From assembly GCF_000621805.1 (NCBI RefSeq), contig NZ_JHXH01000008.1, positions 54,130 through 118,129 on the forward strand: a DNA stretch of 64,000 nt, read 5' to 3'. The DNA is from Ruminococcus sp. FC2018. Lineage in GTDB: Bacteria > Bacillota > Clostridia > Oscillospirales > Ruminococcaceae. How positions within the stretch are numbered: position 1 is the stretch's first letter; the number at the start of each line of letters is the position of its first letter. The translations under genes and the position numbers were made by a program. The notes below the pieces were generated by a model. It searched no databases, was not told the DNA's origin, and saw nothing but the letters and a program-made list of their open reading frames with translations. Positions 8,440 to 37,207 of this stretch are shown here, in pieces.

Positions 8440-8522
8440 AGAATCCCCTCATTTCTTTAACATCTTTTTAGAGAATAGAATCAGTTCGTTTTATTAGTTC
8501 AGCGTCAATATTAATGATTATT

Positions 8523-11579: not shown

Positions 11580-11591
11580 ATTATCAGCTCC

Positions 11592-13055: not shown

Positions 13056-13066
13056 AACAGAACACC

Positions 13067-20898: not shown

Positions 20899-20918
20899 GG
20901 CAGCCCCGAAGGACTGCC
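20899..20918 (-). terminator. Terminator of the hyd-nitrogenase-like-hyp string
   Basis: GGCAGTCC-TTCG-GGGCTGCC hairpin just beyond the hypE stop. The leftward T tract is weak, so termination may be partial. Confidence 0.5.
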
Positions 20919-20933
20919 CTGTCTTTTAATTGC

Positions 20934-21941
20934 TCAGCATATTCTCGGCAGAAGTTCGCCGCTTGGCTGGGCAAGCATTGTCTGTGCGCCTATCTCGGTT
21001 TCCAGCACGACCTTGCCCGGGTTGTCCTCAGTAACCTCACCGATGACCGCTGCATTCTTTGAATAGGGGCACTGATGCAAAGTGTCCAGCAGTGCCTGTG
21101 CCTTGTCCTTTGGCGCAACAACAACAAGCGTACCCTCACAGGCAAGATACAACGGCTCAAGCCCAAGCATTCCGCAAACGCCTTTTACCTCGTCCGCAAC
21201 GGGGATATCAGGAGCGTTAAGCTTTATCCCCACATTGCTCTGCCCGCTTATTTCGTAAAGGACCGTGCCTACGCCGCCTCGTGTAGCGTCACGGATAACG
21301 TGTATATCATCTGTGGTCTCAAACATCTTCTCGACCGTTCCCCACAGCGGTGCACAGTCGCTTTTCACATCTGCCTCAATGCCGAAATCGTTTCTTTCAA
21401 GCAATATTGTACAGCCATGTCTGCCTATGTCACCTGTGACGATTATCACGTCTCCCGGCTTTGCAAGCGTTCCCGAGGTGTGGGCATTGTCCATAACTCT
21501 GCCAATACCTGTGGTAGTGATGAACACCTTATCTACCTGCCCCTTGCCCGCAACCTTTGTGTCGCCGGCAACTATCTTTACACCCGCCTCTTTAGCCGTC
21601 TTCTCCATTGCAGCTGCTATCTTTTCAAGCTTGTCCAGCTCAAAGCCCTCTTCTATAACAAACGCACAGGTCATGTACAGCGGCTTTGCACCCATGCAGG
21701 ACAGGTCGTTGACCGTTCCGCAGATAGATAGCTTGCCAATGTTTCCGCCGTTGAATTCATACGGCGAAACGATGAATCCGTCCGTCGTAAAAGCAAGCTT
21801 TCCACTCTGCATCTCAAGTACTGCCGCATCGTCAGCAGTAAACTCAGGGTTTGAGAAATGTGCCTTGAATACCTTGTCTATAAGCTCCGCCGTCTGCTTT
21901 CCTCCAGCTCCATGCGCAAGCGTTACTACTTTATCACTCAT
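20934..21941 (-). CDS. hypE: HypE, carbamoyl dehydratase for cyanide ligand synthesis
   Basis: 335 residues of the AIR-synthetase-like fold. HypE takes a carbamoyl group from HypF on its C-terminal Cys, dehydrates it with ATP to a thiocyanate and hands cyanide to the HypC-HypD iron. The conserved starts (LAHGAGGKQT, FTTDGFIVSPYEFNGGNIGK, VAGDTKV, RDATRGGVGTVL) are present. The obligatory end PRIC, with the acceptor cysteine as last residue, is intact. It is separated from hypD by a 368-bp palindromic repeat (21973-22340), unlike the tight junctions elsewhere in the string. No hypA or hypB is found in the window. Confidence 0.96.
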   Translation of the reverse strand: MSDKVVTLAHGAGGKQTAELIDKVFKAHFSNPEFTADDAAVLEMQSGKLAFTTDGFIVSPYEFNGGNIGKLSICGTVNDLSCMGAKPLYMTCAFVIEEGFELDKLEKIAAAMEKTAKEAGVKIVAGDTKVAGKGQVDKVFITTTGIGRVMDNAHTSGTLAKPGDVIIVTGDIGRHGCTILLERNDFGIEADVKSDCAPLWGTVEKMFETTDDIHVIRDATRGGVGTVLYEISGQSNVGIKLNAPDIPVADEVKGVCGMLGLEPLYLACEGTLVVVAPKDKAQALLDTLHQCPYSKNAAVIGEVTEDNPGKVVLETEIGAQTMLAQPSGELLPRIC

Positions 21942-21972
21942 TGTTTTTACTTCCTTTCATCTTATAATATGC

Positions 21973-22340
21973 TAAATCAGAATTTGCCGCCGCGGCGGCA
22001 CGCTTGTCCGTCGCATATCGGTTTGAGCAGGCAGCGGCTTTCGTGCCGCTCCGGGCTTTCACTTTGTGATAACTGTACAAGAGTAGAGCTGTGTTGTGCA
22101 AACCTCGGTAAATCCGCATTTGTTGAGGTATACCTGTCAAGCAACTGTGGGTATTCTCTTGGGAGCGTTTTTTCTCAAACTCTTTTTCTGAACTCTCTAA
22201 CACTTTTCAGTGACGGGAGCTTTGCCTCCCGTTGCTGAAAAGTCATTAAAAGGTTTAGGCAGGGGGTCTGGGGGATAACCCTTCTCCAAAAGGGTTTCCC
22301 CCAGCTGACACGCAGGGATGATGCGGTAAATTCTGATTTA
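21973..22340. repeat. Palindromic MITE-like element between hypD and hypE
   Basis: Ends are near-perfect 18-bp inverted repeats: TAAATCAGAATTTGCCGC (21973) and GCGGTAAATTCTGATTTA (22323-22340). An internal end-like sequence lies at 22107, so the unit looks like one full copy (22107-22340) plus about 134 bp of a second one. It contains a long hairpin (about 22202-22243) and a second hairpin GGGGGATAACCC/GGGTTTCCCCC with loop TTCTCCAAAA. A second copy lies at 63710-63941 in the opposite orientation. It has no coding capacity. Confidence 0.8.
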
Positions 22341-22342
22341 TC

Positions 22343-23389
22343 TTACATACCGTACTGATAATATGCCGAGCAAGCGCCCTCGCCGGAGACCATACAAGCA
22401 CCGACGGGGTGCTGTGGAGTGCAGACCTTACCGAAGACCTTACAGTCGCAGGGTTTACACTTACCCTGGAGAACGTCGCCGCATCGGCAGGCAGGATTTG
22501 GTTTACCTTTTATTTCGGGCAGGCTGTACTTTTTGCGTGCGTCAAAATCTGCATATTCCTCACGGAGCTTCATGCCAGACATTTTTATAACACCAAGTCC
22601 TCTCCACTCGCTGTCGCATGGCTCCATGACCTTTGCCATAAGCTTCTGCGCCGCAGGGCTTCCCTCGTCCTTTACAACTCTGGGGTAGCAGTTCACAAAG
22701 AATGGCTCACCCTTTTGCAAAAGTGTTACCGTAACAGCGAGCGCCGTGAGCAGTTCCTTGGCAGTAAATCCCGCAACAACACCGCTCACGCCCTGCTCGC
22801 TAAGAGCCTTGCAGGTGGCATTGCCGGTTATGGCGTTGACGTGACCCGGAAAAAGGAACGCATCTGCGCTGCCCTTGAGAGCCTGATATGCGTTGGGCAT
22901 TGTCTTGTTTGCGCAGAGAATAGAGAAATTGTCAAGTCCGTCTTTTCTTGCCTTTTCCACGGCGATGCAAGCCGATGGTGTGGTAGTCTCAAAACCTACC
23001 GCAAGAAATACTACCTGCTTGTGGGGATTTTCTTTGGCAAAGTCCACAGCGTCCAGGGGAGAATACACCGTCTTGATCTGCGCACCCTTGCCCCTTGCAT
23101 CTGCAAGGCTCATTTCCGTTCCCGGAACTCTGATAAGATCGCCGAATGTGCAGATCACACAATTCTTTTCCAGCGCAAGAATGCACGCCTCGTCGATATA
23201 ACCCACAGGAGTTACGCACACAGGACACCCCGGACCGGAAATAAGCTCTATGCTTTCGGGCAGTATCTTTCTTATGCCAAGTCGGAAGATCTCATGGGTG
23301 TGTGTCCCGCACACCTCCATTATCCGCAGTTTTCTGCCGTTATAACCCTTGAGTATCTCTTTGGGCGATAGTCCGTTCAGATTGTCCAT
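22343..23389 (-). CDS. hypD: HypD, Fe(CN)2CO assembly scaffold
   Basis: 348 residues. HypD, with HypC, holds the iron while the CN and CO ligands are attached. Visible hallmarks are the redox Cys in MEVCGTHTHEIFR, the GPGCPVC pair, CANKTMPNAYQAL, FLFPGHVNAITG and the C-terminal Cys array CRCGDVLQGKCKPCDC and CTPQHPVGACMVSGEGACSA that binds a [4Fe-4S] cluster. All key cysteines are present. Its start overlaps the hypC stop by one base, and it is separated from hypE by the repeat element. Confidence 0.97.
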   Translation of the reverse strand: MDNLNGLSPKEILKGYNGRKLRIMEVCGTHTHEIFRLGIRKILPESIELISGPGCPVCVTPVGYIDEACILALEKNCVICTFGDLIRVPGTEMSLADARGKGAQIKTVYSPLDAVDFAKENPHKQVVFLAVGFETTTPSACIAVEKARKDGLDNFSILCANKTMPNAYQALKGSADAFLFPGHVNAITGNATCKALSEQGVSGVVAGFTAKELLTALAVTVTLLQKGEPFFVNCYPRVVKDEGSPAAQKLMAKVMEPCDSEWRGLGVIKMSGMKLREEYADFDARKKYSLPEIKGKPNPACRCGDVLQGKCKPCDCKVFGKVCTPQHPVGACMVSGEGACSAYYQYGM

Positions 23390-23595
23390 TACAGCTCCTC
23401 CATGATCTTGTTGGTCTCATTTTCGTCATCGTCGGTGATCTTTGCAATAGCCACTCCGGCGTGGACCATTACATAATCCCCCACCTCCAGGTCATCAAGA
23501 AGCTCTGCGCTGACACTTCTTTTTGCCCCGCTTGCGTCAATCACTGCCGTACCGTCCTTAAGGTCTACAACCTTTGCTGATAAACCTACACACAT
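23389..23595 (-). CDS. hypC: HypC, hydrogenase maturation chaperone
   Basis: 68 residues beginning MCVGLSAKV, where Cys2 is the essential residue that binds the Fe(CN)2CO unit together with HypD. The small beta-barrel core (VIDASGAKRSVSAELL, VGDYVMVHAGVAIAKI) is typical. It lies 17 bp after hypF and overlaps hypD by one base. In [NiFe] systems HypC also docks on the large-subunit precursor. No such subunit is encoded here, so the acceptor is unknown. Confidence 0.95.
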   Translation of the reverse strand: MCVGLSAKVVDLKDGTAVIDASGAKRSVSAELLDDLEVGDYVMVHAGVAIAKITDDDENETNKIMEEL

Positions 23596-23612
23596 AATCT
23601 ATACCTCCATTA

Positions 23613-25895
23613 TTATTTTTCAATATTGCAAAGCGCATAATAAGCCTGCCCAAGGGCGATACCTCCGTCGTTTGCAGGGACAAGTGAATGTATCAGCACC
23701 TCAGATCCCAGTGCCTCAAGACTCTGTTTTGTAAGCTTTAAAAGCAGCTTGTTCTGGAACACTCCGCCGCTCAATGCGCATTTTTTTACACCTGTTTTTC
23801 TGCTGATATTCTCGCAGCATTTTACTATTGCATCTGCAAGGGAAAGGTGAAAAGCGTACGCAAGTTTTTCTGCGTCCTCTCCCTTAAGATAACGCTGTGC
23901 GATCTCCCCTGCAAGGGCTGTGGTGTCAAGCGTCACAAATCCGTTTTCCTCTCGTTCCTCAACACTTATAGTGTCGCACATAGCTTTTTTCTTTTCAAAC
24001 CTCTCTGCCGCAAATTCAAGGCACATTGAGCTTTCGCCCTCAAATGTGGAGCGGTTTCTGATACCCAGGATCGCACTCACTGCGTCAAACAGCCTGCCTG
24101 CACTGGTGGAGACCACCGTGTTAACCTCTTTGTCCGCCATGACAGACTGGAGCTTGAACGTCTTTTCATCGCACAATCCCAGCTTACTGCAAACCTGCCA
24201 CGCATTTTCACCCAGGCTGTCACGGATAAGCTGTACAGCTATCCGCCAGCCTTCTTTTGAAGAAACGTCGCCGCCCACCTGTCTGAACGGCTTTATGCTG
24301 CCTGCTCTTTCAAAGCCATGGGTATCACACAAAAGGATCTCGCCGCCCCATATAGTTCCGTCGGTGCCGTAACCCGTTCCGTCAAAGGATACTCCGATGA
24401 CTTTTTCATCAACGTCGTTCTCCGCCATGCAGGAAAGGATATGAGCATAGTGGTGCTGCAGTTTCACAAGGGGCAGACCTGTTTCCTCTGCCGCCGCAAC
24501 GGTGTTGTATCGTGGGTGCATATCGCTCACGCAAATCCGGGGCTGAGCCTCAAGCAGCTCCTGCATTCGCCCCACCGATTCTTTCAGAGCGTTCACCGTT
24601 CTTATGTCCGCCATATCTCCCACATAGGACGACAGATAAAGCAGTCTGTTTTTGCCTATGCAGAAAGTATTTTTCAGCTCTCCTCCTATGGCAAGGGAGG
24701 TTACCTCTCCATCTTTGCTCACCATGACAGGAAGCGGCGCAAAGCCACGTGAACGGCGTATCATATACGGTTTTCCTTCAAACCAATCCATTACCGAATC
24801 GTCGGCACGGATAAGTATTTTTCTGTTGTGGGATAATATCAGATCGCAGTATGAGCCGATCTCTTTTTTTGCGTCCTCATCGCTGCGGCATATTGGTGCA
24901 CCTGATACATTTCCGCTTGTCATCACCAGACAGTCTGTCATTTCCATACCGTCGGGGTAATCAAAAAGCAGCATCTGAAGCGGCGCATAAGGCAGCATAA
25001 CTCCCACCGTGGGATTGTCGGGGGAAATTGTTTGGCAAAGCTCTCCCCTTTTCTTTTCAAGCAGCAGTATCGGTTTTTGGTAACCAGTCAGAAACTCCCT
25101 CTGCCCTTCAAGCACACGGCACTCACGCTCCACCGTATCCATGTCCTTCATCATAACTGCGAAAGGCTTTGCAGGACGGTTTTTAAGCTTTCTCAGCCTG
25201 TCCACTGCCCGGCGGTTTTTTGCATCACAGCAAAGGTGAAAGCCGCCTATGCCCTTAACAGCGATTATCTTTCCCTCCATAATACTTTTGCGTGCATAGG
25301 TTATGGCAGCTCCGCCCTCTATGTCCTTGTCAACAATATACACCTTCGGTCCGCAGTCATTGCAGCACACAGGCTGTGCATCGTACCGCCGTGTGTGGGG
25401 GTGGGTATATTCGTAATCGCATTTTTCACACATGGGAAAATCCTTCATGGTGGTGCGCTCCCTGTCATAGGGCATTGCTTCAAGTATGGTCAGCCGTGGT
25501 CCGCACTGTGTGCAGTTTATAAACGGGTGAAGATAACGTCTGTCATTTTTGTCAAAAAGCTCGCTTCGGCATTTGTCACAGGTTGCTATGTCCGGAGAAA
25601 CAAAAATATCCCCGGTCTCCTTTTCGCTTTCAATTATCTCAAAGGAAGTAAAGTCCATATCCTGCGCCTGTCTTACATCGGCAGAGATAACCGTTGCCCT
25701 TTCGGGAGTGTGGTTTTTTATGGTGTGCACAAAACGGTCCAGCACATGGCTTTCCCCCTGTGCAAACACCTCCACGTACGAGCCTTTATTTGCAACAGTT
25801 CCAAGCACGCCCATAGAGCGTGCGGTCCGGGAAACAAAGGGTCTGAAGCCCACGCCCTGAACAATTCCGTAAAGTCTTATCATCAAGCAAGGCAT
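23613..25895 (-). CDS. hypF: HypF, carbamoyltransferase
   Basis: 760 residues. It uses carbamoyl phosphate and ATP to make carbamoyl-adenylate and transfers the carbamoyl group to HypE. Domains in order are acylphosphatase (GIVQGVGFRPFVSRTARSM), two zinc fingers (CDKCRSEL...CTQCGP and CEKCDYEY...CCNDCGP), a YrdC-like domain (IMEGKIIAVKGIGGFHLCCD) and a Kae1-like domain (VKLQHHYAHILSCMAEN, VSFDGTGYGTDGTIWGGE, CALSGGVFQNKLL). It is full length. ATG 25895 has GGAGG six bases upstream; ATG 25883 is an alternative. It overlaps the last nitrogenase-like gene, so HypF is part of that string. Confidence 0.97.
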   Translation of the reverse strand: MPCLMIRLYGIVQGVGFRPFVSRTARSMGVLGTVANKGSYVEVFAQGESHVLDRFVHTIKNHTPERATVISADVRQAQDMDFTSFEIIESEKETGDIFVSPDIATCDKCRSELFDKNDRRYLHPFINCTQCGPRLTILEAMPYDRERTTMKDFPMCEKCDYEYTHPHTRRYDAQPVCCNDCGPKVYIVDKDIEGGAAITYARKSIMEGKIIAVKGIGGFHLCCDAKNRRAVDRLRKLKNRPAKPFAVMMKDMDTVERECRVLEGQREFLTGYQKPILLLEKKRGELCQTISPDNPTVGVMLPYAPLQMLLFDYPDGMEMTDCLVMTSGNVSGAPICRSDEDAKKEIGSYCDLILSHNRKILIRADDSVMDWFEGKPYMIRRSRGFAPLPVMVSKDGEVTSLAIGGELKNTFCIGKNRLLYLSSYVGDMADIRTVNALKESVGRMQELLEAQPRICVSDMHPRYNTVAAAEETGLPLVKLQHHYAHILSCMAENDVDEKVIGVSFDGTGYGTDGTIWGGEILLCDTHGFERAGSIKPFRQVGGDVSSKEGWRIAVQLIRDSLGENAWQVCSKLGLCDEKTFKLQSVMADKEVNTVVSTSAGRLFDAVSAILGIRNRSTFEGESSMCLEFAAERFEKKKAMCDTISVEEREENGFVTLDTTALAGEIAQRYLKGEDAEKLAYAFHLSLADAIVKCCENISRKTGVKKCALSGGVFQNKLLLKLTKQSLEALGSEVLIHSLVPANDGGIALGQAYYALCNIEK

Positions 25896-26938
25896 ACCTG
25901 TCCTCCGTTTTCGTCAAGTCTGCCTGACACAGCAAAGTGCGGCAGGTCGATCAGCCGGCAGCCGCAGTCTTTTAGTGCACGGTCGCAGATATTGTCTATG
26001 ATGACCACATCGTAACCGCCGCAGGTGACCGTTTCCACAAGCTCCTGTTCGTCTGCAATGAACTTGTCACCCTGCTGTTTATACTCATCAAACAGCTTGA
26101 AAAATGTGCCCACATCAACATCACAGTCGTACTTTTCTTTCAGCAGCTTTCTCATTTTGTTTGCCGCAAACTGCTGATGCACAACAAGGATCTTTTTGCC
26201 CGAAAGATCATTTTCAAGCACCTTTTCCATAGCCGGTGTCACAGGAAAATCCGTTTCGTACTCGATCCCGAATTGTTGTTTCAAATATTCCGCAGCCTTA
26301 ATTGCACCTGTGGAAATAACAATATTGCGCTCACAATCCGATGCCCTTGCTATCTCCTCGGTGCCGCTGCCCATTCCAAAGCAAACAGCGTTATTTCCGT
26401 AAGTCCCTTTAAACAGCTCATTGCTCATATATCCCGTGGCAAGGGGTGTGCAGCCGATAATTCCCACCTTGCCTGTTACAGTTTCATATTTTTCCTTTGC
26501 AAAGGTCCGCAGCAGCTCCAGGTAAGCCCTTTCCTCGCCGTCATCGTAAAGCCTTGTGCCTGTGCAGTCAACGCATATCCCGGGCAGTCCGGTCTTGTTT
26601 TCAGCCATACGTTTCAGTGCCTTGTAATCAGTAGCTATCACCGCCGGGACAGGTGTGCCCACCACTGCCGTGAACTTTACATCGGTCTGCCCCACAGCCT
26701 TTGCGGTCTTGGCGATAAGCATATCGTCACGACCCAGTATCGCATCCATGTCACGAAGTCCTGCGCTGAAGACTGCACTTTTTTTGAAAAACCACCGTGG
26801 CTCGTCAAAACCGCATATGTTGCCTGCGCAGCCTCCTGCGTCGCATATAACCACAAGTCCGCCCAGCTCGTAAAGCACCCCTACCGCACCCGACTGGTCG
26901 GGAGCAAAGGGGGAAAGAAGTTTCAGAAGTTTTTTCAT
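25883..26938 (-). CDS. Nitrogenase component-1-like small subunit, module 2
   Basis: 351 residues of the nitrogenase component-1 superfamily (NifD/K, BchN/B). The N-terminus VLYELGGLVVICDAGGCAGN gives one cluster-ligand-like Cys at 37 (with Cys32 and Cys42 nearby), followed by DEPRW. The next superfamily position, usually a Cys before GLIGDD, reads VVGTPVPAVIATDY with no Cys. It is a paralogue of 28986-30125. I infer that it pairs with the large subunit 26935-28230 to hold an Fe-S cluster, as BchB/BchN do. It overlaps both neighbours by a few bases. There is no evidence of a FeMo-cofactor pocket, so N2 fixation is not suggested. The substrate is unknown. Confidence 0.85.
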   Translation of the reverse strand: MKKLLKLLSPFAPDQSGAVGVLYELGGLVVICDAGGCAGNICGFDEPRWFFKKSAVFSAGLRDMDAILGRDDMLIAKTAKAVGQTDVKFTAVVGTPVPAVIATDYKALKRMAENKTGLPGICVDCTGTRLYDDGEERAYLELLRTFAKEKYETVTGKVGIIGCTPLATGYMSNELFKGTYGNNAVCFGMGSGTEEIARASDCERNIVISTGAIKAAEYLKQQFGIEYETDFPVTPAMEKVLENDLSGKKILVVHQQFAANKMRKLLKEKYDCDVDVGTFFKLFDEYKQQGDKFIADEQELVETVTCGGYDVVIIDNICDRALKDCGCRLIDLPHFAVSGRLDENGGQVCLA

Positions 26939-28230
26939 TTTTCCGCTCCTTTCAATGCCCGGTCAAGTTTCTCAAAAAGCAGCCTCAGACCTGCGTATCC
27001 AAAAGGCTGACGCTCCTCGTTCCAATCAACGGTGGGCACGTCTGCGTGATAGTAACCGGCATCGTTTCCGATGCATACATCTATCCTTTTGCCGCTTGGC
27101 TCATAGTCCAGCATGGTAGGCGAGAGGTTTGAAAATATCTTTGTGTCCGGGCTTAGCTTTGCGATGGCTTTAACAAACACAAAATTGCGCTGACCCACTG
27201 TTCCGTATATCTCCGATACCGAAAATCCATAGCTCAGCAAAGCCCAGGCAAGCTCGAATGAATCCGCATTCAGAAATTCCCCTATAGCAAAAATCAGCTC
27301 ACCGTACTGTGCTTTGAAATCATCTATGGCTTTTTTTGTACGGGCATAGTGCTGTGTATCATCAAAGGTCACCCCAATGGCGTTTGCCAGGGACATATAC
27401 TGGTTGTGGATCTTGTCAATATGATACATTCTCATCATTTCGATGTAAGGCAGTCCCAGCGTCTCCTCCATTTGCTGCGCCGCATATCTGGCTTCGGAAT
27501 TGAGCACAAGATTGAAATTTGCCTGGGACATTTTCTCGTACTCCTCAAAGCTTTCGCAGCGTGATATCTCACGGATATGCCTGATACCCGCCTTTGTGAG
27601 CAGCTCGTATATCTCGCTGTCATCATTCAGCGGAGCAAAAAAGCCGAGGATATTCATCGCATCGGGATGTCTTTTCTGCGGCTTGAGAAGCGAATATACC
27701 GCCTTTCTCACCGCCGCCATGGGTGGGAGCTTCTTCTCTCTTGTCAAAGCATACATATAGCAAGGCACAACAGGCACCCCTGCCAGCTCCTCGCACTTTC
27801 GGCTCACCCTTTCCATGTCCGTGCCAAGAAGTGCATCAACGCAGGTTATACATATCATTACCGCACTGGGCTTTTCCTGGCAGAAGTCATAGACCTCCTT
27901 TACAGCCTGTGGTATCTTTGTCAGGTGTCTGCCTGTGACAATGTCCGTGTCGTCCAGCAGAAGATAGAAAAATCTGTCCTGATAGCCGCAAAGCCGTGAC
28001 TGCATGGTTGTGTTTCGTCCGCAGCAGCCCGGAGATACAAGCAGCATAACCGAACCGGGTATGGCAAGCCCTGCTCGCTTGACGCCAAAGCCTTGTGCGC
28101 CGGGAGAGTTGAACGCCAGCGTTGCAGGGGAAGAATAAATCAGGTGCTTTGCACTGAGAAGCTCTTCCGGAATGTTCTCAAACCCCAGCTGCGCAAGCTC
28201 AGCCGCAGTTATATAAAATGCCTTATTCAT
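26935..28230 (-). CDS. Nitrogenase component-1-like large subunit, module 2
   Basis: 431 residues from ATG 28230, which overlaps the NifH-like stop by 8 bp. Component-1 fold with cluster-ligand-like cysteines in [13 protein letters not shown] (Cys69, Cys70) and [15 protein letters not shown] (Cys130). The latter aligns with the NifD motif ECPIGLIGDD that supplies a P-cluster Cys. It is about 15% longer than its partner and related to the 30122-31459 protein. It is much shorter than catalytic NifD or NifK (about 480-520) and nearer to BchN or CfbD sizes. I infer electron transfer from the NifH-like protein through a [4Fe-4S]-type cluster to an unknown substrate or cofactor precursor. Confidence 0.88.
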
Positions 28231-28984
28231 TTTCCTTGTCCTCATCTATCAGCTTTTGTGCCAGCGACAGAAAGCGCTTTGATACCTCCAGCTGCGCATC
28301 GCCCTCTATCACTGTTTTGCCCTGGTCCTCAAACCTGATTATGTCGTTTGAACGGGGTATCTCCGCAACTATTTCAAGTCCGTTTTTTTGTACAAATTCA
28401 TTTACCTTTTCATCTTCGTTAGGTGCGTTGCGTCGGTTGAAAACAATACCTCTGACCTTTGCGTAACCCCTGTCGGCAAAATTGTTCACTGCGCTGTTGA
28501 TATTGTTTGCAGCGTACAAAGCCATTTTCTCACCCGAGGTAACAATTAGTACCTGGGAGGCATAGCCCTCTCTGATCGGTGCCGCAAACCCTCCGCATAC
28601 AACGTCACCAAGCACATCGTAAAGCACCACATCGGGCTTGTATTTTTTGTAAAGCTCAAAGCTTTCAAGAAGATTGAATGTTGTGATTATACCTCTGCCG
28701 GCACAGCCAAGGCCTGGAGTCGGACCGCCTGTTTCGATGCAAAGGATACCCTTGTAGCCCACCTTTGATATCTCCTCGATGCCCGACGGTTCGTCATGCT
28801 CACGCAGGTAGTTCATCACCGGCGTAAGCGGCTCACCTCCCAGAAGATTTATGGTGGAATCCGCCTTGGGGTCACAGCCTATCTGGATCACCCTTTTGCC
28901 AAGGGTCGCAAAAGCTGCCGCAAGGTTAGCCGTAACGGTGGATTTTCCGATACCGCCCTTTCCGTATATCGCTATTTTTATCAT
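28223..28984 (-). CDS. NifH-like ATP-driven iron protein, module 2
   Basis: 253 residues from ATG 28984 ([16 protein letters not shown]); an upstream in-frame extension is rejected. The nucleotide loop GKGGIGKST, Cys94 in GLGCAGRG and Cys130 in [10 protein letters not shown], the two residues that hold the shared [4Fe-4S] cluster between monomers, are all present. Arg97, the regulatory arginine position of NifH, is also kept. Nitrogenase-type iron proteins couple ATP hydrolysis to one-electron transfer to component 1. It starts one base after the previous gene's stop region and overlaps the next, so its partners are surely the adjacent component-1-like subunits. Confidence 0.93.
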
Positions 28985-28985
28985 A

Positions 28986-30125
28986 TCATAACTCCAATCC
29001 AAGTTTTTTATCCACAAGATCCGGGATGTTCTTTCTGAAGCATCTTCCCGAAAAAGCCTCGTGAGGTATAGGTACAAACTTTGCGTTTGCAGGGGCTATT
29101 GGCTTGAAAAGCGGGTCTGCGATAACACAGCTGCACTTTGCAAATTCCTCCTCAAGCTTGTCCTCGTCAGTGATTTTTCTATCCCCGCCGGCGATAAGCT
29201 CCCCGCCGGCATCAAGGGTGTGTATCACTCTGACCGGCTTGCCTGTGTGCATCATGATCCCTCTTGCCAGAGAGCCTGCGTAAACGCTTTCACCCACAAC
29301 TACCGTTTTGCAGTCCGCACAGATTTCACCACGCAGTGCGCAGGAAACGATTTCTGTTTTTCCCTCCACAGCCCTGTGTATATCTTCTCCCAGAGCCACA
29401 GCAAACTCTTCTCCAAGAGGAAGTCCCACAACATACGGCGTACCGAATCTTTCCTGCAGCACTTTTGCTGCCCTGAGACCGCTTGAGGACACAACCAGAT
29501 TGCACCGTGCATCCCCTGCTGTTTTATAGTCATCAAGGCTGCTTCCCATAGCCATGCAGCAGCCTTTTTCAAAGCCGCATTTTTTAAGCCACGCCCATAT
29601 GGAATCCACTATCTCCTGCCTTGAAAGGTCAAGGGGAGTCGCTCCAAGAATGTTGACTGCGTTTTTAACATTGCCTGTGCTGCCGCAGTAACAGCGTGCC
29701 AGCATCTCAAACGCCTCGGATGCACCTGAGACATAGCTTTTCATGCCGTTGGTGTGCATTGGGTGGGTGGGTATTCCGCAGCGGCTTTGTATAACACTTG
29801 CCAGGGCATCAAAATCCGTCCCCGTCATTGCCGGCATCGGCGAACCGCATATAGCTATGAACTTCGGTCCCAGCTTTTCCGCCGATCTGCACACGTCATT
29901 TATAAACCTTTCGTCGTTGCCCATTACAGCATCTATCTCCGTAAGGGCAGAAACATATATCATGCTGTCCATATCGTACCAGCGAGGCTCGTCATGGGTA
30001 GCATAGGTGGAATTGCATCCGGAGGCATCGTGGACAACAACCATCCCCCCCAGCTCGTAAAGCGCCGAGCAGACTCCCGACGTATCTGCCGTGTAGCAGG
30101 ATATTATTCTTGCATAATGTATCAT
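28986..30125 (-). CDS. Nitrogenase component-1-like small subunit, module 1
   Basis: 379 residues from ATG 30125, overlapping the upstream stop by 4 bp (ATGA). The N-terminus [20 protein letters not shown] provides Cys37 and is followed by THDEPRW, exactly as in the module 2 paralogue. The position equivalent to the NifD Cys154 motif reads [16 protein letters not shown], with the Cys shifted or absent. The C-terminal half is a Rossmann-like domain. I infer that it contributes one Cys to an interface cluster whose other three ligands come from the 445-residue partner. Confidence 0.85.
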
Positions 30126-31459
30126 AGGCAGCTCTGACACCCCGCTCCCTTGTGCTGTATAACAGTCCTTCTGTCCTTTGGGTTGCGGGCTGCATCAGCT
30201 ATCTGCTCTGCCATAGCCACAATGCCGTCAAAGCCATAGCAGCCCCTTGCGCCCACCATATCCACAAAGTAATCTGTGCAGCAGAAATATGCTGCTCTCT
30301 GACCTATGGCAAAGTATCGGTTTTCTTCCCCGTCAGCGGACGCAAAAAACCTCATCGAGGAATCCGCCGTGGGGAATATCTCCACGTCGGGATAGTGCTC
30401 CTTGATATGCTCAAAAGCACCCCTGTCCTCCTCACTTATAACATCAACGAAAATGCGTCTTACGCCAATGCCGTTATCAAGCAGCAAGGCGCACAGCTCA
30501 AACGGCTTGTGAGCCGCCGTAAAGTCCACCGCAGCAGGCTCGCCGTCAAGAGCTTTTGCAGCCGCCTCAAGAGCCTTCCTTGCCTTGTTTTCGGCTTCGC
30601 TAAAGTCGGGCATTTCCACTCCCAACTCTCTGCACAGAGCTTTGTAATTGTCCTTTATCTTCTCAAAGTCCCAGCTCACCGGCAGATACAGATGCTTCTG
30701 CCCAAGCCTTTGTTCAAGCTCCTCACCCGCCGCCGAAGCCTCGGGTATAACCGTTATATTAAGCGACGACTTTGCCATTTCAAGATACTGCTGATAGCTT
30801 ACGCAGCCGGGCAGCTGGCGGAGCACTCTTCCCGAGTTTTTTATTATCCTCACAAGCTCGCAGCTTTCCTCAAACGCCCAGTTGTACCCGATAATATTAA
30901 CTCCGCCGTCCTTTGCGGTCTCAGGCAGAGGAACGAACATCTGTCTGTACATTGTCGGCACGGGAGGCAGCCCGCTGAATCGCATGGTGGGAGTCATATA
31001 GCATTTTACAAAATCCACACCTGCAAATCTGCTTTCAAGCTCCTCGATGATAATGTCAAAATCCACACCTGCAAAAAGGTGCATACAGCTTAAAAAAACA
31101 AGTATGCAGGGCGGTCTTTGCTCCATGCGCTTTATGACCTGTGTGACCGAATCTATTATATTCTGCTCCATATTTCCGTCGGCGTAATCCTCATCGCACA
31201 GATATGCCCAGGACAGCCTGTCCATAGCGTCCATTTCCGCCGTTGTCTGTACCACGCCCCGAAGGCAGCCCTGTGCGCAGAAATATATCTGATGTGCCTG
31301 GGGTATGAGCAGCCCTATGTGCACAATGTTCCAATCTCCCCTTGCAGGAGGACTGTATTCAAGACCACCTGCAAACGGGCGGGGGAATTCAGCCTGTGCT
31401 ATCTTTATACCGCACGGCTTTGTAAGCTCGCCGCCTGCCTTTTTCAGCATATCACTCAA
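30122..31459 (-). CDS. Nitrogenase component-1-like large subunit, module 1
   Basis: 445 residues. Cluster-ligand-like cysteines lie at 61 and 65 ([13 protein letters not shown]) and 125 ([15 protein letters not shown]). The last motif matches the CPIGLIGDD position of NifD. A further pair ends the chain (GCQSCL), which module 2 lacks and which could bind metal or pass electrons. The N-terminal 40 residues are Pro-rich and unlike the paralogue. It overlaps both the NifH-like gene (8 bp) and the small subunit (4 bp), indicating coupled translation. The substrate is unknown. Confidence 0.88.
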
Positions 31460-32204
31460 AACCTTTCATTATCCCATCGGCAAGCCTTTCATACTGCCTT
31501 GCCATGTCGCTGTCGGGATACTTTTTCATCACCGTAGTTCCCAGCCTGTCACATTCCTGCACAAGCCTGCTGCGTTCAAGGTCACCAACGATGACCGTAC
31601 CAAAGTCCTTTGCAAGTGTCTGCACGTTTTCAAGCTCGTTTTCAACATTACGTCTGTTGAGAATAAGCCCTCCCAGCTGTGCATAGCCTCTGCCCTTGAA
31701 GTTGTCTATCGCCATAGCGATATTGCCCGCCGCATAACATGACATCTTTTCCCCGGAGGTAACTATAAATACCTTCTGAGCGTAGCCCCTGTGCATGGGC
31801 ATTGAAAAGCCGCCGCACACCACATCGCCCAGCACGTCGTAAAGCACCACATCAGGCTTGTACTTTTCATATGCGCCCTTCTTTTCAAGCCGCTCCAGAG
31901 CAGCGATTATTCCTCTCCCCGCACAGCCAAGCCCGGGTACAGGACCTCCTGCCTCAACGCAGAAAACTCCCTCATCGCCCACCGTGACCATGTCCTCAAG
32001 AGTAAAATCATCCCCTTTTTCACGCACCAGGTCAAGCACCGTCTTTATCCTCCTGCCGCCGTTGAGCAGCGAGGTAGAATCCGCCTTGGGATCGCAGCCT
32101 ATCTGCATCACCCTCAGCCCTTTTTTCACCAGTGCCACAGCTAAATTTGAAACGGTTGTGGACTTACCTATGCCGCCCTTACCGTAAACTGCTATCTTTA
32201 TCAT
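31452..32204 (-). CDS. NifH-like ATP-driven iron protein, module 1
   Basis: 250 residues with [18 protein letters not shown], Cys94 in GLGCAGRG, Cys130 in [10 protein letters not shown] and Arg97. All signatures of a functional nitrogenase-type iron protein are therefore present. It is clearly a paralogue of 28223-28984 but well diverged, so the two modules are not a recent duplication. The start lies 26 bp inside the end of hydE, which ties the nitrogenase-like genes to the hydrogenase maturases in one transcript. Confidence 0.93.
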
Positions 32205-33258
32205 AACTCTTATGGTCTCCTCTTGTAATAATGACCTTGTATCCTATTGACTCCATCCGCCTTTCAAGGCACGCTCTGCACTGTGCAGACTCATCGCCCG
32301 TACATATCTTGCCATCGTACAGAAGATACTTTTTGCGCACGTTCATAGGCGAGAGATTTGGCATTATAACATTTGCACCTGCCATCACGCCATGTTCCCT
32401 GCCGTCGGGACGAATAGTTCCCAGCGCCGTAGTCGCAGGGATAAGACAATCAGGCAGCATAAGTCTGCAAAGGCTTATAAGAAACAGCGTCAGCTCATAA
32501 CTCCCCGCAGGCTTGTCCTTAAAGGGTGTGTCCTTGTGAGGGATAAACGGTCCCATGCCTATCATTTCCGGTTTAAATCTCTCGACAAACATAAGGTCGT
32601 CGGCTATATCCTCAACCGTCTGGTACGGCGCACCCACCATCATTCCGCAGCCTGTCTGATAGCCTATCTCTTTAAGCTGTTTCAGGCAGTCCATTCTCCT
32701 CTGCCAGCTCATATCGCTTGGATGCAGCTTTCTGTAATGCTCCGGGTTTGCGGTCTCGTGGCGCAGCAGATATCTGTCTGCCCCAGCATCAAAGAGCCTC
32801 TTGTAATCTTCATACTCCAGCTCTCCCACCGACAAAGTCACCGCACAGTCGGGGTGAGCTTTTTTTATGCTGCCAACTATATCGCACAGCTTGTCGGTGG
32901 TGAAGCTTTTGTCCTCACCGCTTTGCAGCACAAAGGTGCGAAAGCCGTACTCGTAGCCTGCATCGCAGCAGTCAAGGATCTGCTCTTTGGTAAGGCGGTA
33001 ACGCTCACAGTTTGCATTTGACTTTCTTATCCCGCAGTAATAGCAATCGTTTCTGCACACATTTGAGAACTCAACTATACCACGGATAAATATCTCTTTG
33101 CCGAACACTTTCACAGCTGTCTGAGCTGCCTTGTGCGCCGCATACGCCCTGTCCTCATCGGTATAGCTTTCAAGAAGAGCGATCCACTGCTGCCTGTCCA
33201 GATGCCTTGTTTTTTCCAGCAGATCTATAAGTTCTTTGTTGTTCATATCATCACTCAC
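32179..33258 (-). CDS. hydE: HydE, radical SAM maturase of the [FeFe]-hydrogenase H-cluster
   Basis: About 355-359 residues (starts GTG 33258 or ATG 33246). The radical-SAM motif is [14 protein letters not shown], and a second C-terminal set [16 protein letters not shown] matches the accessory cluster of HydE. The barrel segments [20 protein letters not shown] and [20 protein letters not shown] are typical. HydE normally acts on the Fe(CO)2(CN)-cysteine unit made by HydG. HydG is not in this window, which makes the pairing with hypCDEF remarkable. It overlaps hydF by a few bases and the NifH-like gene by 26. Confidence 0.94.
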
Positions 33259-34451
33259 AATTTATTGTAAAGGTGCGGGAAAATCTCAACGCTGCGTTTG
33301 AGTATCCCCGTCATGTGGGCAATAGCCACTCCGTAATTTGTAAACGGCACATCCTGGTCCGATGCGCACTTCATACGCAAACTCATTTCCCTTGGGGTAA
33401 GCATACAGCCGCCGCAGTGTATCACCAGTGAATATTGCGAAAGGTCGTCGGGGAACTCTCTGCCGGAGGTGGTTGAAATATCGATCTCCATGCCCGTGTG
33501 CTTTTTCAGCCAGCCGGGTATCTTCACCGTTCCTATGTCACCGCACTGTCTGTGGTGTGTACAGCCCTCTGAGATAAGCACCCTGTCACCGCTTTTCAGC
33601 CTGTCGATAGCTGCCGCACCCTCCACAGCCGTGTCAAGAAAGCCCTTGTACCTTGCCATAAGGATAGAAAACGATGTTAGCATTATACCGGGCGGTGTCT
33701 GTCTGTTTGCCGAGGCAAAAGCCTGGCTGTCGGTTATGACCAGCCTCGGCTTTTTACCAAGAGTCTTTAAAGTGTCCCCCAGCTCTGTGTCCTTGACCAC
33801 TACAGCACAGGCATCTGCATCGAGGATATCCCTTATAGTCTGCTGCTGTGGCAGAATAAGTCTGCCCTTTGGTGCGCTTTCGTCGATAGGCACAACAAGC
33901 ACCACAAGGTCGTTCCTTTCCAGCTTGTCACCGATTATTCTCGCTGCCCGTCCGGGCTTATCTGCCAAAGCACCCAGTTTTTCTTTCAGCTCCTCAATAC
34001 CGTCGCCCGTCTTTGCGCTTACATATGCACAGTTTTCCCCCTGAACCTTACCGCTTACAATATCCGTCTTGTTCACGGCGATTAAAAATGGTATCTGCTT
34101 TTTTTCAAAAAGCTCAACAAGCTCCCTTTCCCATTGACCGATACCCACCTGTGCGTCTGTTACGAGCACAGCTATATCTGTCCGGTTAAGAGCTTTTCTC
34201 GTGCTCTGAACACGCATCTGTCCAAGCTCTCCCTCGTCGTCAAAGCCTGCCGTGTCAATTATGACCACCGGACCCAGCGGCAAAAGCTCCATTGCCTTGT
34301 ACACAGGGTCGGTGGTAGTCCCCGCCACATCCGACACAAGACTAAGCCCCTGGTTTGTCACAGCATTGACAATGCTTGACTTGCCGGCATTTCTTCTGCC
34401 GAAGAAACCGATATGCAAACGCTCCGAAGAAGGAATATCGTTAAGTCCCAT
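33255..34451 (-). CDS. hydF: HydF, GTPase scaffold of [FeFe]-hydrogenase maturation
   Basis: 398 residues from ATG 34451. The GTPase domain has the P-loop FGRRNAGKSS, GTTTDPV, DTAGFDDEG and NKTD. A dimerisation domain follows, then the cluster-binding domain with CTHHRQCGD and HCGGCMLTPREM, the three-Cys signature of HydF. HydF carries the [2Fe] subcluster precursor and delivers it to the hydrogenase. All signatures are intact. It follows the TM1266-type gene by about 190 bp on the same strand and overlaps hydE. Confidence 0.95.
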   Translation of the reverse strand: MGLNDIPSSERLHIGFFGRRNAGKSSIVNAVTNQGLSLVSDVAGTTTDPVYKAMELLPLGPVVIIDTAGFDDEGELGQMRVQSTRKALNRTDIAVLVTDAQVGIGQWERELVELFEKKQIPFLIAVNKTDIVSGKVQGENCAYVSAKTGDGIEELKEKLGALADKPGRAARIIGDKLERNDLVVLVVPIDESAPKGRLILPQQQTIRDILDADACAVVVKDTELGDTLKTLGKKPRLVITDSQAFASANRQTPPGIMLTSFSILMARYKGFLDTAVEGAAAIDRLKSGDRVLISEGCTHHRQCGDIGTVKIPGWLKKHTGMEIDISTTSGREFPDDLSQYSLVIHCGGCMLTPREMSLRMKCASDQDVPFTNYGVAIAHMTGILKRSVEIFPHLYNKL

Positions 34452-34639
34452 ACATCTGCGCTCCCTTTCTTTTGATTTTTCTCTGTCCGTCACGCAATAA
34501 AAAAACAGCTCACCCCGACGGATAAACTGCACACAAAAACCATATGTCCCTACAATGAACATACCCTGTTTTTTTTACATCTATCAAGCTTTCGCCTCAA
34601 TAATTATTTCAGCGTCAGGAGATAATATTTATTCTGTTT

Positions 34640-34888
34640 TTACTGCTTGCCCGAATAGAGAGTCTTTGCCGTCACTCCGCTGATCCTGCCTATCCTGCCT
34701 GCAAGGGTGTTGATCTTATCCTGCGGTGCATCTATCGCCACGCTTATGATGTTGATCCCCTTGTTCCGATAAGGCACTCCCATCCTGCCGATTATAAACT
34801 CACCGTACTCATGCAGCACAGCGTTTATCTGCCCGGCAGCATCATAGTCCTCAGCGATCACGGCTATAACAGCAACTCTCGTTTCCAC
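34640..34888 (-). CDS. TM1266-type iron-only hydrogenase system regulator
   Basis: 82 residues from GTG 34888, chosen because GGAGG precedes it by 6 nt. It is a small ferredoxin-like (ACT/NikR C-domain-like) protein: TRVAVIAVIAEDYDAAGQIN, GEFIIGRMGVPYR, INIISVAIDAPQDKINTLAG. The family (TM1266, putative iron-only hydrogenase system regulator) is regularly found beside hydE, hydF and hydG. It has no DNA-binding domain, so it probably senses a small ligand and acts through a partner. It is the first gene of the string, directly behind the consensus promoter at 34933-34961. Confidence 0.85.
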   Translation of the reverse strand: METRVAVIAVIAEDYDAAGQINAVLHEYGEFIIGRMGVPYRNKGINIISVAIDAPQDKINTLAGRIGRISGVTAKTLYSGKQ

Positions 34889-34932
34889 TATAAACCTCCA
34901 TTCCCGAAAAAGGACCATATTACTACAATTTC

Positions 34933-34961
34933 AATATACCATATTACCGACCCTTTGTCAA
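34933..34961 (-). promoter_or_regulatory. Consensus promoter of the hyd-nitrogenase-like-hyp string
   Basis: Read leftward: -35 TTGACA (complement of 34956-34961), a 17-bp spacer, -10 TATATT (34933-34938), about 40 bp before the GTG at 34888. This is close to the housekeeping sigma consensus and suggests substantial expression. No clear operator was seen. Confidence 0.8.
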
Positions 34962-35102: not shown

Positions 35103-35873
35103 ATGCAGTTCAACAAAGTGGAGATAAGCGGAGTTGATACAAACTCTCTCAAGGTGCTCACCGAGGAGGAGAAGCTTGAGCTTCTGGAAAGGACCAGAAA
35201 CGGCGACAAAAAAGCCAGAGAGGAGCTTATAAACGGCAATCTGCGCCTTGTGCTCAGCGTTTTGCAAAGGTTCACCGGCAGGAGCGATTGCGCCGACGAC
35301 CTTTTTCAGGTAGGCGTTGTGGGACTTATCAAGGCTATCGACAATTTCGACCCCAAGTTTGCCGTCAAGTTCTCATCCTATGCCCACCCCATGATAGCAG
35401 GGGAAGTAAGGCGGTACCTGCGTGACTTCCAGCCCGTAAGAGTCAGCCGCTCCCTGCGTGACCTTGCGTACAAATCCATGCTTGCCAAGGAAAAGCTCAC
35501 CGAGAAGCTGCGCCGTGAGCCTACTCCCACCGAGATAGCGATCGAGACCGGTGAACAGCGCAGCGATATTGTTACCGCCATGGAATCGGTAAGCGAGCCG
35601 CTGTCTCTTTACGACCCGGTGTATTCCGATTCCGGAGACACCCTGTATGTCCTTGACCAGATAAAGGACAGCTGCGACGATAAGACCTGGCTGGACGAGC
35701 TTTCCGTAAAGGAGACCATCGCCGCCCTTAAACCCCGTGAAAAACAAATTCTCTATCTGAGATTTTTCAAAGGCGCCACCCAGATGGAGGTCGCAAAGAC
35801 GATAGGTATCTCCCAGGCGCAGGTCTCCAGACTTGAAAAAGGAGCACTGGACAGGATAAAGGAGCAGTTTTAA
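35103..35873 (+). CDS. sigG: Sporulation sigma factor SigG
   Basis: 256 residues closely matching sigma-G. The start FNKVEISGVDTNSLKVL contains the diagnostic NKVEICGVDT-like element. Region 2 follows (NGNLRLVLSVLQRFTGR, DDLFQVGVVGLIKAIDNFD, KFSSYAHPMIAGEVRRYLRD), then region 3 (PVRVSRSLRDLAYKSM) and region 4 (ETIAALKPREKQILYLRFFK, QMEVAKTIGISQAQVSRLEK). SigG drives late forespore genes, so the organism likely has a sporulation programme. It is transcribed away from the hydrogenase-related string. Confidence 0.93.
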   Translation: MQFNKVEISGVDTNSLKVLTEEEKLELLERTRNGDKKAREELINGNLRLVLSVLQRFTGRSDCADDLFQVGVVGLIKAIDNFDPKFAVKFSSYAHPMIAGEVRRYLRDFQPVRVSRSLRDLAYKSMLAKEKLTEKLRREPTPTEIAIETGEQRSDIVTAMESVSEPLSLYDPVYSDSGDTLYVLDQIKDSCDDKTWLDELSVKETIAALKPREKQILYLRFFKGATQMEVAKTIGISQAQVSRLEKGALDRIKEQF

Positions 35874-35894
35874 AGCTGCTCTTTCTTTATTTTT
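35862..35894 (+). terminator. Terminator overlapping the end of sigG
   Basis: GAGCAG...CTGCTC around the stop codon, followed by TTTCTTTATTTTT. The remaining bases to 36079 are AT-rich and should hold the promoter of the next gene. Confidence 0.7.
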
Positions 35895-36079
35895 CGACTT
35901 GTTTTTTTGTAATTTTTAACAAACTGTAAATTTTCTTTGCTTATATGGCAACTTTATCCGTCGTTGCTCCCTAAAATTTGATTTTCAAGGCAAAATATTG
36001 TATAATTACAAAATATATTGGACGAACCGTAACCATACCCAGCCATACAATACTCATATAAGCAAGGAAAGATATACCG

Positions 36080-36850
36080 ATGAAAACTATCCTTATCGCA
36101 GAAGACTATACAGGGCAGCACTCACGGCTAATAAAAGCTGTCAGTGAGTTTGACTACCAATGCAAGATCTGTAAAAACAGTCCTATTGAGCTAAGTATAA
36201 TACTTGCGGATCTCGTGCCCGACCTTATCATTCTAAATGTGAGCAGGATAGGACTTGACGACCTGCGTGAAATTGTTATGGCTGCAAACGTCAAAGGGGT
36301 GAAATATCCCATAATAAATATAGGCACGTATGAGGATCCCTGGCTGGAGCCGGGAATAAATCTGAAGGAGATAAAAGGCAGCTTTCACCACCCATATGAC
36401 ATACCCACCGTGGTAAAAAGCATAAACAGATTGCTGTTTAACGAGCAGGACGAAAGCACTCGGGGAGAAATGCTGAACAACAAGCTTTACAGCTTGATAC
36501 TCAAGCTCAACCCCTCCAAAAAGCAGCGTGGCAACACCTATATCTGCGACAGCGTAGCAGCGCTGCTCTCCGACCACAGCGGAAAAGTCAGGCTCCACGG
36601 CTACCTGTATGATTACATAGCAAAGAAATACGATACCACCGTAAAAAGCGTGGAGCACTCCATCAGGATTTCCGTAAACAGCTGCTGGAATACCACCAAC
36701 ACAGAGCTTTTGTCCCTTTGCATGAAGGACCTGTATCTGCGTGGAAAGCGACCCACAAACCTTGAATTCATAAACGCCCTTGTCCAATGTTTCTCCGGGG
36801 ATACCACCGCCATTTTTAAGAATAGCCCAAGCCATAAGCTGCATATATAG
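36080..36850 (+). CDS. Spo0A-like protein with degenerate receiver domain
   Basis: 256 residues. The C-terminal half matches the Spo0A DNA-binding domain: GNTYICDSVAALLSDHSGKV, LYDYIAKKYDTTVKSVEHSI, RISVNSCW. The N-terminal half has a receiver-like fold with the acidic pair Glu8-Asp9. The phosphorylation Asp is Asn53 (LIILNVSRIG), and the usual Lys before Pro is His104 (FHHPYD), so normal phosphoryl transfer should not occur. It may be a phosphorylation-independent or ligand-sensing relative of Spo0A rather than the master regulator itself. It lies between sigG and ymxH. Confidence 0.8.
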   Translation: MKTILIAEDYTGQHSRLIKAVSEFDYQCKICKNSPIELSIILADLVPDLIILNVSRIGLDDLREIVMAANVKGVKYPIINIGTYEDPWLEPGINLKEIKGSFHHPYDIPTVVKSINRLLFNEQDESTRGEMLNNKLYSLILKLNPSKKQRGNTYICDSVAALLSDHSGKVRLHGYLYDYIAKKYDTTVKSVEHSIRISVNSCWNTTNTELLSLCMKDLYLRGKRPTNLEFINALVQCFSGDTTAIFKNSPSHKLHI

Positions 36851-36867
36851 TTTCTGAGGTGAAAACT

Positions 36868-37158
36868 ATGATATGCAGCTTTTCCGGTCTCAGAAACAAA
36901 GAAGTTGTGGACCTTCGCTCGGGTATGAAGCTTGGCTTTGTGGACGATGCGGAGCTTGACACTGTGTCGGGTAAAATAGTCTCTCTTGTGGTCTATGGTA
37001 AACCCAGAGCCTTTGGAATAATGGGCAGAGATGACGATATTGTAATAAAATGCACCGACATACAGCTTATCGGCGAAGATATAATCCTTGTGGATTTTGA
37101 GCAAAAGACAATATCCACAAAAACAAAAAGCTTTCTTGTTGAAAATTTGTTAAAATGA
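36868..37158 (+). CDS. YlmC/YmxH-family sporulation protein (PRC-barrel)
   Basis: 96 residues from ATG 36868, with GAGGTG 6 nt upstream. The core FSGLRNKEVVDLRSGMKLGF and VDDAELDTVSGKIVSLVVYG matches YlmC/YmxH, a small PRC-barrel family common in spore formers. Its biochemical role is not known. It begins 17 bp after the Spo0A-like gene and probably shares its transcript. Confidence 0.85.
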   Translation: MICSFSGLRNKEVVDLRSGMKLGFVDDAELDTVSGKIVSLVVYGKPRAFGIMGRDDDIVIKCTDIQLIGEDIILVDFEQKTISTKTKSFLVENLLK

Positions 37159-37172
37159 CGGAGCGATAAAAC

Positions 37173-37201
37173 TTGCAATAAGGTGAAAAATATGGTATAA
37201 T
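37173..37201 (+). promoter_or_regulatory. Promoter of rpsB-tsf
   Basis: -35 TTGCAA (37173-37178), 17-bp spacer, -10 TATAAT (37196-37201). Predicted transcription start near 37208. Confidence 0.8.
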
Positions 37202-37207
37202 ATCAGA

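Follow-up and report, generated by a model that had tools for sequence, protein, structure and literature searches.

The 64,000-nucleotide stretch of Ruminococcus sp. FC2018 DNA analysed here (positions 54,130 to 118,129 of contig NZ_JHXH01000008.1, hereafter the window) carries a string of 13 genes that very probably replaces HydG in the assembly of [FeFe]-hydrogenase, giving the maturases HydE and HydF an iron-CO/CN unit made in another way. The frame list and the library scans place the genes on the minus strand, from 34918 down to 20934, in the order TM1266-type regulator, hydF, hydE, nifH1, L1, S1, nifH2, L2, S2, hypF, hypC, hypD and hypE, where we use L for a large and S for a small nitrogenase component-1-like protein; NifH1-L1-S1 is referred to as module 1 and NifH2-L2-S2 as module 2. 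In the known pathway, according to the accessible part of PMC13360658, HydG derives CO and CN from tyrosine and forms complex B, Fe(Cys)(CO)2(CN), which is activated by HydE before HydF assembles the product; in the accessible part of PMC12752695, H-cluster assembly is said to require HydG. The content of the genomes that carry the operon strongly supports the replacement of HydG.

The genome to which the window belongs, a 2.4-Mb assembly that is 99.57% complete, contains one PF02906 [FeFe]-hydrogenase (HydA, L004) with the motifs TSCCPGW, IPCTAKKFE and MACPGGC; their cysteines, which we take to be the H-cluster ligands, are all intact. The sole match of the HydG profile in this genome was HydE, which scored 64 bits (cut-off 312), a result by which we rejected a ThiH-like stand-in for HydG there, and PF00374, the [NiFe] large subunit, had no match in it. 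A typical HydG would not have been missed, because HydG scored above 600 bits in 102 of the 104 HydG-positive genomes of the family. In the absence of HydG and of a [NiFe] large subunit, the only client in sight for HydE, HydF and HypCDEF is an ordinary [FeFe]-hydrogenase; for these reasons the operon most likely leads to the known H-cluster by a new route. The original prediction, made from the sequence of the window, had invoked a new Fe-CN/CO cofactor pathway; a pathway of Fe-CN/CO chemistry is indeed likely, but the absence of HydG points to the known H-cluster rather than to a new cofactor.

The 247 genomes of the window's family were each searched for HydG, L1, HydA, HydE and HypD. HydG was above the cut-off in 104 genomes and HydE in 122; HydA (PF02906) was found in 237 and HypD in 19, while the L1 profile gave 24 matches, 22 of them with E <1e-50; its hits in G091 (E 4e-8) and G179 (E 4e-13) were excluded from the L1 count. 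Among the 122 HydE-positive genomes, 97 had HydG only, 21 had L1 only, one had both and three had neither (Fisher p 2e-19 for the exclusion, kinship ignored). Two of the three with neither, G049 and G173, carry cut HydG fragments (247 and 273 bits), and the third, G016, is 55% complete. HydE was present in all 22 L1 genomes, and six genomes of the family had HydG with no HydE above the cut-off. HydG and L1 were swapped within six genera (g36, g71, g73, g90, g93 and g108), the swap in g73 resting on G230, an L1 genome that is only 56% complete. On a separate subject, the best HydA-like protein of all 14 sampled family genomes that lack HydE, HydG and L1 (L139-L152) has TSCSPGW, with Ser for the second Cys and the other motifs intact; this variant is also the best HydA of one HydG genome (L157) and of several L1 genomes.

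A further test covered whole genomes, 50 in number, from the 80 related loci described below, among them that of L056, which is of a reduced type. HydG was above the cut-off in none of these 50 genomes (completeness unstated), and HydE was above it in all 50, including those whose locus lacks hydE. All 50 had HydA, of the TSCCP type in at least 37. No [NiFe] large subunit was detected in 45 of them, the matches in the other five covering only residues 1-69 of 508. Five genomes (G256, G257, G258, G262 and G263, with loci L015, L017, L020, L025 and L028) have a second HydE-like protein, at 335-340 bits, besides a better HydE.

Three protein searches with L1 returned 295, 4010 and 4348 proteins at E <=0.001, not all of which need be L1; about 8000 candidates were scored in each and 120 listed, and most of the listed L1-like proteins of gut bacteria are either unnamed or annotated as "hypothetical protein" or "nitrogenase". 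Locus counts refer to the best 80 of 407 places found by scanning named genomes. These 80 loci come from Ruminococcus, other Clostridia, Anaerostipes, many Lentisphaeria and a Spirochaetaceae. All thirteen genes occur in 19 loci, including those of R. albus 8 (L054) and of the complete R. bicirculans 80/3 (L012), and both modules in 70. By gene, the counts were nifH1 80, L1 80, S1 77, nifH2 72, L2 70, S2 70, hypF 66, hypC 61, hypD 61, hypE 50, hydE 60, hydF 36 and TM1266 68, with contig and flank ends accounting for part of the missing genes; hydG was found in none of the 80. Where at least 9 kb past L1 could be read (57 loci), module 2, hypF and hypD were found in 54; L073 and L076 have module 2 and hypF, with hypD not within reach, and L056 has neither module 2 nor hyp genes.

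In 78 of the 80 loci the genes that were found stand in the same order on one strand, the exceptions being L052 (order) and L056 (hydF after S1), and because of this recurrence the string is beyond chance. The original prediction had described the thirteen genes as one leftward string, had seen in it three machineries acting as one system, and had proposed looking for the same order elsewhere; all thirteen lie on the minus strand at 20934-34918, and the shared order supports the single system. The parts of the system are also tied together by fusions. One 700-residue protein (P0121, Clostridiaceae bacterium BL-3, locus L014) joins NifH1 to L1, and a single 1153-residue frame in L075 (14527-17988) joins S2 to HypF. 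The system is real, widespread and ordered. Its parts belong to families already known; for their combination, the literature searched holds no description.

The loci fall into two architectures. In the 247 genomes a further match of the L1 profile, weaker than the first, was counted as L2, with tblastn used as a check in G177 and G246. By this count L2 was present in 10 of the 22 L1 genomes of the family; all 10 also have HypD, which occurs in none of the remaining 12. The other nine HypD-positive genomes of the family lack L1. The L1-only loci were fetched from all 12 genomes, and ten were read after setting aside L206 (G022), which stops about 250 bases past L1, and L208 (G241), a diverged relative in a genome with HydG. 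Downstream of nifH1-L1-S1, all ten carry a binding lipoprotein akin to the PF01497 protein of L056, and nine have in addition an FecCD permease and an ATPase, the tenth, L204, reaching the contig edge. Five carry hydE (L200, L201, L202, L203 and L207) and five hydF (L201, L202, L204, L205 and L207); neither module 2 nor any hyp gene was detected in the ten readable loci. L056 and L077 have the same reduced make-up, and the loci of this variant are thus L199-L205, L207, L210, L213, L056 and L077. The importer ATPase of L077 is fused to a TM1266 domain, and in L199, L202, L205, L207, L210 and L213 tblastn located a match to TM1266 within the frame of the ATPase. L1 of the reduced variant retains its Cys-rich end, with at least two Cys among the last residues in 11 of 11 sequences; L208 lacks this end. 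In this last locus a diverged NifH-L-S set (7324-13566) stands with the same importer type, no adjoining hydE and no Cys tail, and it is perhaps a different nitrogenase-like system. Together, the coupling of L2 to HypD and the FecCD importer of the L1-only loci suggest a split between making and importing a precursor: module 2 and HypCDEF would make an Fe-CN/CO precursor, other species would import it, and module 1 would feed HydE and HydF.

In HydF, C334, H336, H337, C340, H382, C383 and C386 are invariant among 34 sequences, including that of the window. The window's HydE agrees with that of Thermotoga maritima at 20 of 24 compared positions, including the three radical-SAM Cys; complex B or a similar compound is therefore probably still its substrate. 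At seven alignment positions the commonest residue differs between operon and HydG-type HydE, pocket position 108 (T. maritima numbering) among them: 57 of 59 operon sequences carry Ser there, and of 15 HydG-type sequences nine have Gly and six Ser. We did not build on a changed HydE pocket. Operon HydE forms one clade (59 of 62 members, support 0.998, midpoint root), a tree that tells little because three HydG-linked HydE sit inside it. In HypC, C2 and H45 are invariant (62 sequences), as is C335 of HypE (47 sequences), the PRIC cysteine, which we take to be the carrier of the cyanide precursor.

Both NifH proteins have the P-loop GKGGIGKS and the two Cys for the shared 4Fe-4S cluster, C94 and C130 of NifH1 being invariant in 78 sequences and C95 and C131 of NifH2 in 71. 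C61, C65 and C125 of L1 are invariant and C441 and C444 are kept at 99-100% (81 sequences); S1 conserves C24, H37, C42 and C98 at 91-100%. In module 2, C74, C75, C132 and C135 of L2 (68 sequences) and C32, C37 and C42 of S2 (67 sequences) are invariant. The best scores of NifH1 and NifH2 (312 and 313 bits) lie under the NifH, CfbC, BchL and BchX cut-offs, and those of the component-1-like proteins far under the NifD and NifE cut-offs (at most 80 bits against 505 for NifE). AlphaFold2 models of L2 (pLDDT 84) and of P0001, which is 99% identical to L1 (pLDDT 86), match nitrogenase component 1. They resemble dark-operative protochlorophyllide reductase (DPOR) and NifEN alike, and also methylthio-alkane reductase, at under 20% identity among the matches listed; the models give the component-1 fold, with no cofactor site readable in them. 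NifE is the best match of L1 among the sequences of the Protein Data Bank (PDB), and the nearest solved relatives of L1 and L2 are NifE and nitrogenase alpha chains. In the alignment made with L2, MMVCSKA of NifE, whose Cys is presumably the L-cluster anchor, faces NLVLNSEA, with Asn at the cofactor Cys position. Judged by sequence, the component-1-like proteins look like reductases or scaffolds.

These data can be accommodated in the following scheme. HypF and HypE would form the cyanide ligand from carbamoyl phosphate on the iron of HypC-HypD. Module 2, working with the Hyp proteins, may provide or adjust the CO side, probably as an ATP-driven reductase and for example from CO2; nitrogenase-type proteins are able to reduce CO2 to CO. 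Module 1, which is common to the HydG-less variants seen, would then convert the unit reductively, and what it passes on to HydE would be complex B or a near relative; HydE and HydF would thereafter act as known. In the reduced variant, the FecCD-type ABC importer and the binding lipoprotein would bring in the precursor made elsewhere by module 2 and Hyp. We tentatively put forward, as a possibility that we do not rate as even, a second H-cluster route whose ligands are not derived from tyrosine, and in which nitrogenase-like reductases and HypCDEF make an iron carbonyl-cyanide metabolite that others import ready-made through an ABC transporter.

Several observations weigh against the replacement of HydG or against parts of this scheme. 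Among the typed HydA proteins of the locus-bearing genomes, none of the TSCCP type was detected in seven of the 50 (one HydA match was left untyped in two of these seven), and six of the 50 are unsettled. G241, the single genome with both, has HydG and a diverged L1 relative of 30% identity, which looks like a member of a different group. None of HydE, HydG and L1 is present in 111 HydA-positive genomes of the family, and because PF02906 occurs in 237 of the 247 the presence of HydA does not discriminate; given this base rate, we dropped it as evidence. The reduced variant lacks HypCDEF, and therefore Hyp is no universal source of ligands in HydG-less cells. The difference at HydE position 108 may be due to chance or may reflect a changed substrate. 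In [NiFe] maturation HypCD makes Fe(CN)2CO, with two CN, but each iron of the [2Fe] unit of the H-cluster bears one CN, and an extra step must therefore be assumed. Both the ligand chemistry and the replacement function are inferred from genes. Finally, an atypical HydG candidate is named for C. ljungdahlii and other acetogens in the available part of PMC9431212.

Among the alternatives, the role in replacing HydG could be kept with the labour divided otherwise, module 1 reducing CO2 to CO and module 2 removing or converting cyanide of the HypCD unit. The S2-HypF fusion and the coupling of L2 to HypD tie module 2 to Hyp under either division; of the two modules, however, the import variant retains module 1 only, which fits a late common step better than the supply of a ligand. 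We therefore consider this other division rather unlikely.

The nitrogenase-like and Hyp genes might instead serve an Fe-CN/CO cofactor of a separate reductive enzyme and merely share the operon, HydA being matured from free CO and CN or mostly inactive. Such an enzyme, bearing the cofactor itself, was the other suggestion of the original prediction. Activation of HydA in vitro by HydE and HydF to about 1% without HydG, as given in the accessible text of PMC9431212, would allow for it, as would the presence in the string of hydE in only 60 and hydF in only 36 of the 80 loci, HydE being encoded elsewhere in the genome. It leaves unexplained, however, the mutual exclusion of HydG and L1 (97 and 21 HydE-positive genomes against one with both), the swaps in six genera and the presence of HydE in 22 of 22 and 50 of 50 L1 genomes, and the conserved string holds no candidate for the client enzyme. 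We set such an enzyme aside in view of the linkage to HydE, the absence of HydG and the Asn of L2 in place of the NifE cofactor Cys, and regard this explanation as very unlikely.

We give slightly less weight still to the proposal that the substrate reduced by the two modules is an organic or tetrapyrrole-type compound which the cell needs alongside its hydrogenase, with the FecCD importer of the reduced variant bringing in heme or cobamide. DPOR also lacks the NifE cofactor Cys, and importers of the FecCD/BtuC type carry heme, siderophores or B12; the fold that matches DPOR and NifEN alike and the lack of that Cys in L2 agree with the proposal, which nevertheless gives no reason for the linkage to HydE, the absence of HydG or the coupling of L2 to HypD. 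Least probable of all is that the place of HydG is taken in these genomes by a different radical SAM enzyme, either ThiH-like or an atypical HydG, with the operon serving some other purpose: a second match to the HydG model, at 176-228 bits, occurs in 23 of the 50 genomes and is presumably ThiH, but the window's genome matches with HydE only and in 27 of the 50 nothing scores above 90 bits. The 2022 acetogen survey, with its atypical candidate (PMC9431212, available part), speaks for such an enzyme.

Table 1. Features of the operon in the window, in the direction of transcription.
Feature	Position	Strand	Basis
Promoter-like site TTGACA-17-TATATT, TG before second hexamer	34933..34961	-	Consensus scan only, 11/12
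TM1266-family putative regulator of [FeFe]-hydrogenase genes	34640..34918	-	TIGR03959, 104 bits (cut-off 60.8); PF21699
hydF, H-cluster scaffold GTPase	33255..34562	-	TIGR03918, 555 bits, above cut-off
hydE, radical SAM maturase	32179..33258	-	TIGR03956, 568 bits, above cut-off
nifH1, NifH-like reductase, module 1	31452..32204	-	PF00142
L1, large component-1-like (NifE-like) subunit with Cys-rich C-terminal tail	30122..31450	-	PF00148
S1, small component-1-like subunit, module 1	28986..30125	-	PF00148
nifH2, NifH-like reductase, module 2	28223..28987	-	PF00142
L2, large component-1-like subunit, module 2	26935..28245	-	PF00148
S2, small component-1-like subunit, module 2	25883..26938	-	PF00148
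hypF, carbamoyltransferase, cyanide ligand synthesis	23613..25895	-	TIGR00143, 780 bits, above cut-off
hypC, chaperone, 68 aa	23389..23595	-	Read from sequence, no library scan; start MCVGLSAKVVDL
hypD, scaffold for Fe(CN)2CO	22343..23389	-	TIGR00075, 400 bits, above cut-off
hypE, with C-terminal PRIC cysteine	20934..21941	-	TIGR02124, 429 bits, above cut-off
Terminator-like stem after hypE	20899..20918	-	Consensus scan only

The start of hydF is likely nearer 34451, most relatives having about 400 residues, and hypC is shorter than the size limit of the first frame list. With the starts of L1, S1 and nifH2 assumed from relatives (31450, 30125 and 28987), 8 of the 12 junctions overlap, which agrees with the overlaps at most junctions predicted earlier; the four others are TM1266-hydF (77 nt), nifH1-L1 (1 nt), hypF-hypC (17 nt) and hypD-hypE (401 nt). 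A 23-base repeat lies inside the last gap (22258-22280), with a second copy at 63770-63792 that has one mismatch; R. bicirculans (L012) has no gap at this junction, its hypD and hypE frames overlapping. As for the single consensus promoter that had been predicted, the site is present, but the scan proves little, 28 promoter-like sites having been found in the region against 13.8 in shuffles, and internal promoters are possible. Another 11/12 site lies at 20878-20850, downstream of hypE and ahead of the next gene. Upstream, on the plus strand (35103-38084), genes for a SigG-like sporulation sigma factor, a Spo0A-C-domain protein, a YlmC/YmxH family protein and ribosomal protein S2 diverge from the operon.

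The operon shares with HydEFG maturation its HydE and HydF with conserved cluster Cys, as well as the TM1266-type regulator, which was also present in 16 of 20 fetched HydG-type loci; it differs in having no HydG and, after hydE, ten other genes, namely the two three-gene modules and hypFCDE. Its HypC, HypD, HypE and HypF are complete with conserved Cys, as in HypABCDEF maturation, whereas the [NiFe] large subunit is lacking in the window's genome and in 45 of 50 relatives, and HypA and HypB lie outside the string (the genomes were not searched for them). The NifEN scaffold is similar in its component-1 fold, in NifE as the best PDB match of L1 and in the task of building a metal cofactor, but L2 has Asn for the L-cluster Cys and the string holds no NifB-type gene (genomes not searched). 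CfbCD, which acts in F430 synthesis, DPOR and its relative COR, and methylthio-alkane reductase likewise pair an NifH-type ATP-driven reductase with a component-1-like protein, and DPOR and methylthio-alkane reductase appear among the structural matches. Compared with CfbCD and DPOR/COR, the operon has two tandem modules tied to hydE and hyp, and its scores are under the CfbC, BchL and BchX cut-offs. Surveys report NifH-like genes of Ruminococcus and its kin as abundant: in the accessible part of PMC4995403, cluster IV NifH genes are abundant in the human gut with a function largely unknown, and in that of PMC8597730 pseudo-nifH sequences come mainly from Clostridia and methanogens. NifH1 and NifH2 of the operon are candidates for part of these cluster IV and pseudo-nifH sequences. 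In the literature searched, which held few subscription journals and preprints, no title or beginning of an abstract described an operon of this kind or an H-cluster pathway that does without HydG.

The acetogens deserve separate mention. Five of eight species have HydE and HydF and no typical HydG, for which an atypical HydG candidate or HydG-free activation is offered, undecided, as the possible reason (PMC9431212, accessible part). One L1 protein, P0260, carries the name C. ljungdahlii and falls in the tree among import-type sequences, in a clade of 13 with support 0.99. With its HydG status as given in the available part of that survey (PMC9431212), C. ljungdahlii fits the pattern of HydG-less genomes with L1. 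The same text reports a separate hypFCDE cluster in this organism (PMC9431212), and its hyp genes are not explained by the operon studied here, because its L1 is of the import type; for this reason we withdrew an earlier reading in which the acetogen puzzle was solved together with its Hyp part.

In summary, if the replacement of HydG by this operon is true, there would be a second way to iron-CO/CN chemistry, used by gut bacteria such as R. albus 8 and R. bicirculans, and a large group of gut-bacterial nitrogenase-like proteins would gain a function. It would also account for HydE and HydF occurring without a typical HydG in C. ljungdahlii and perhaps in other acetogens, as these are presented in the accessible part of PMC9431212. 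Furthermore, if the import variant works as proposed, the organometallic precursor of the H-cluster would be a shared good.

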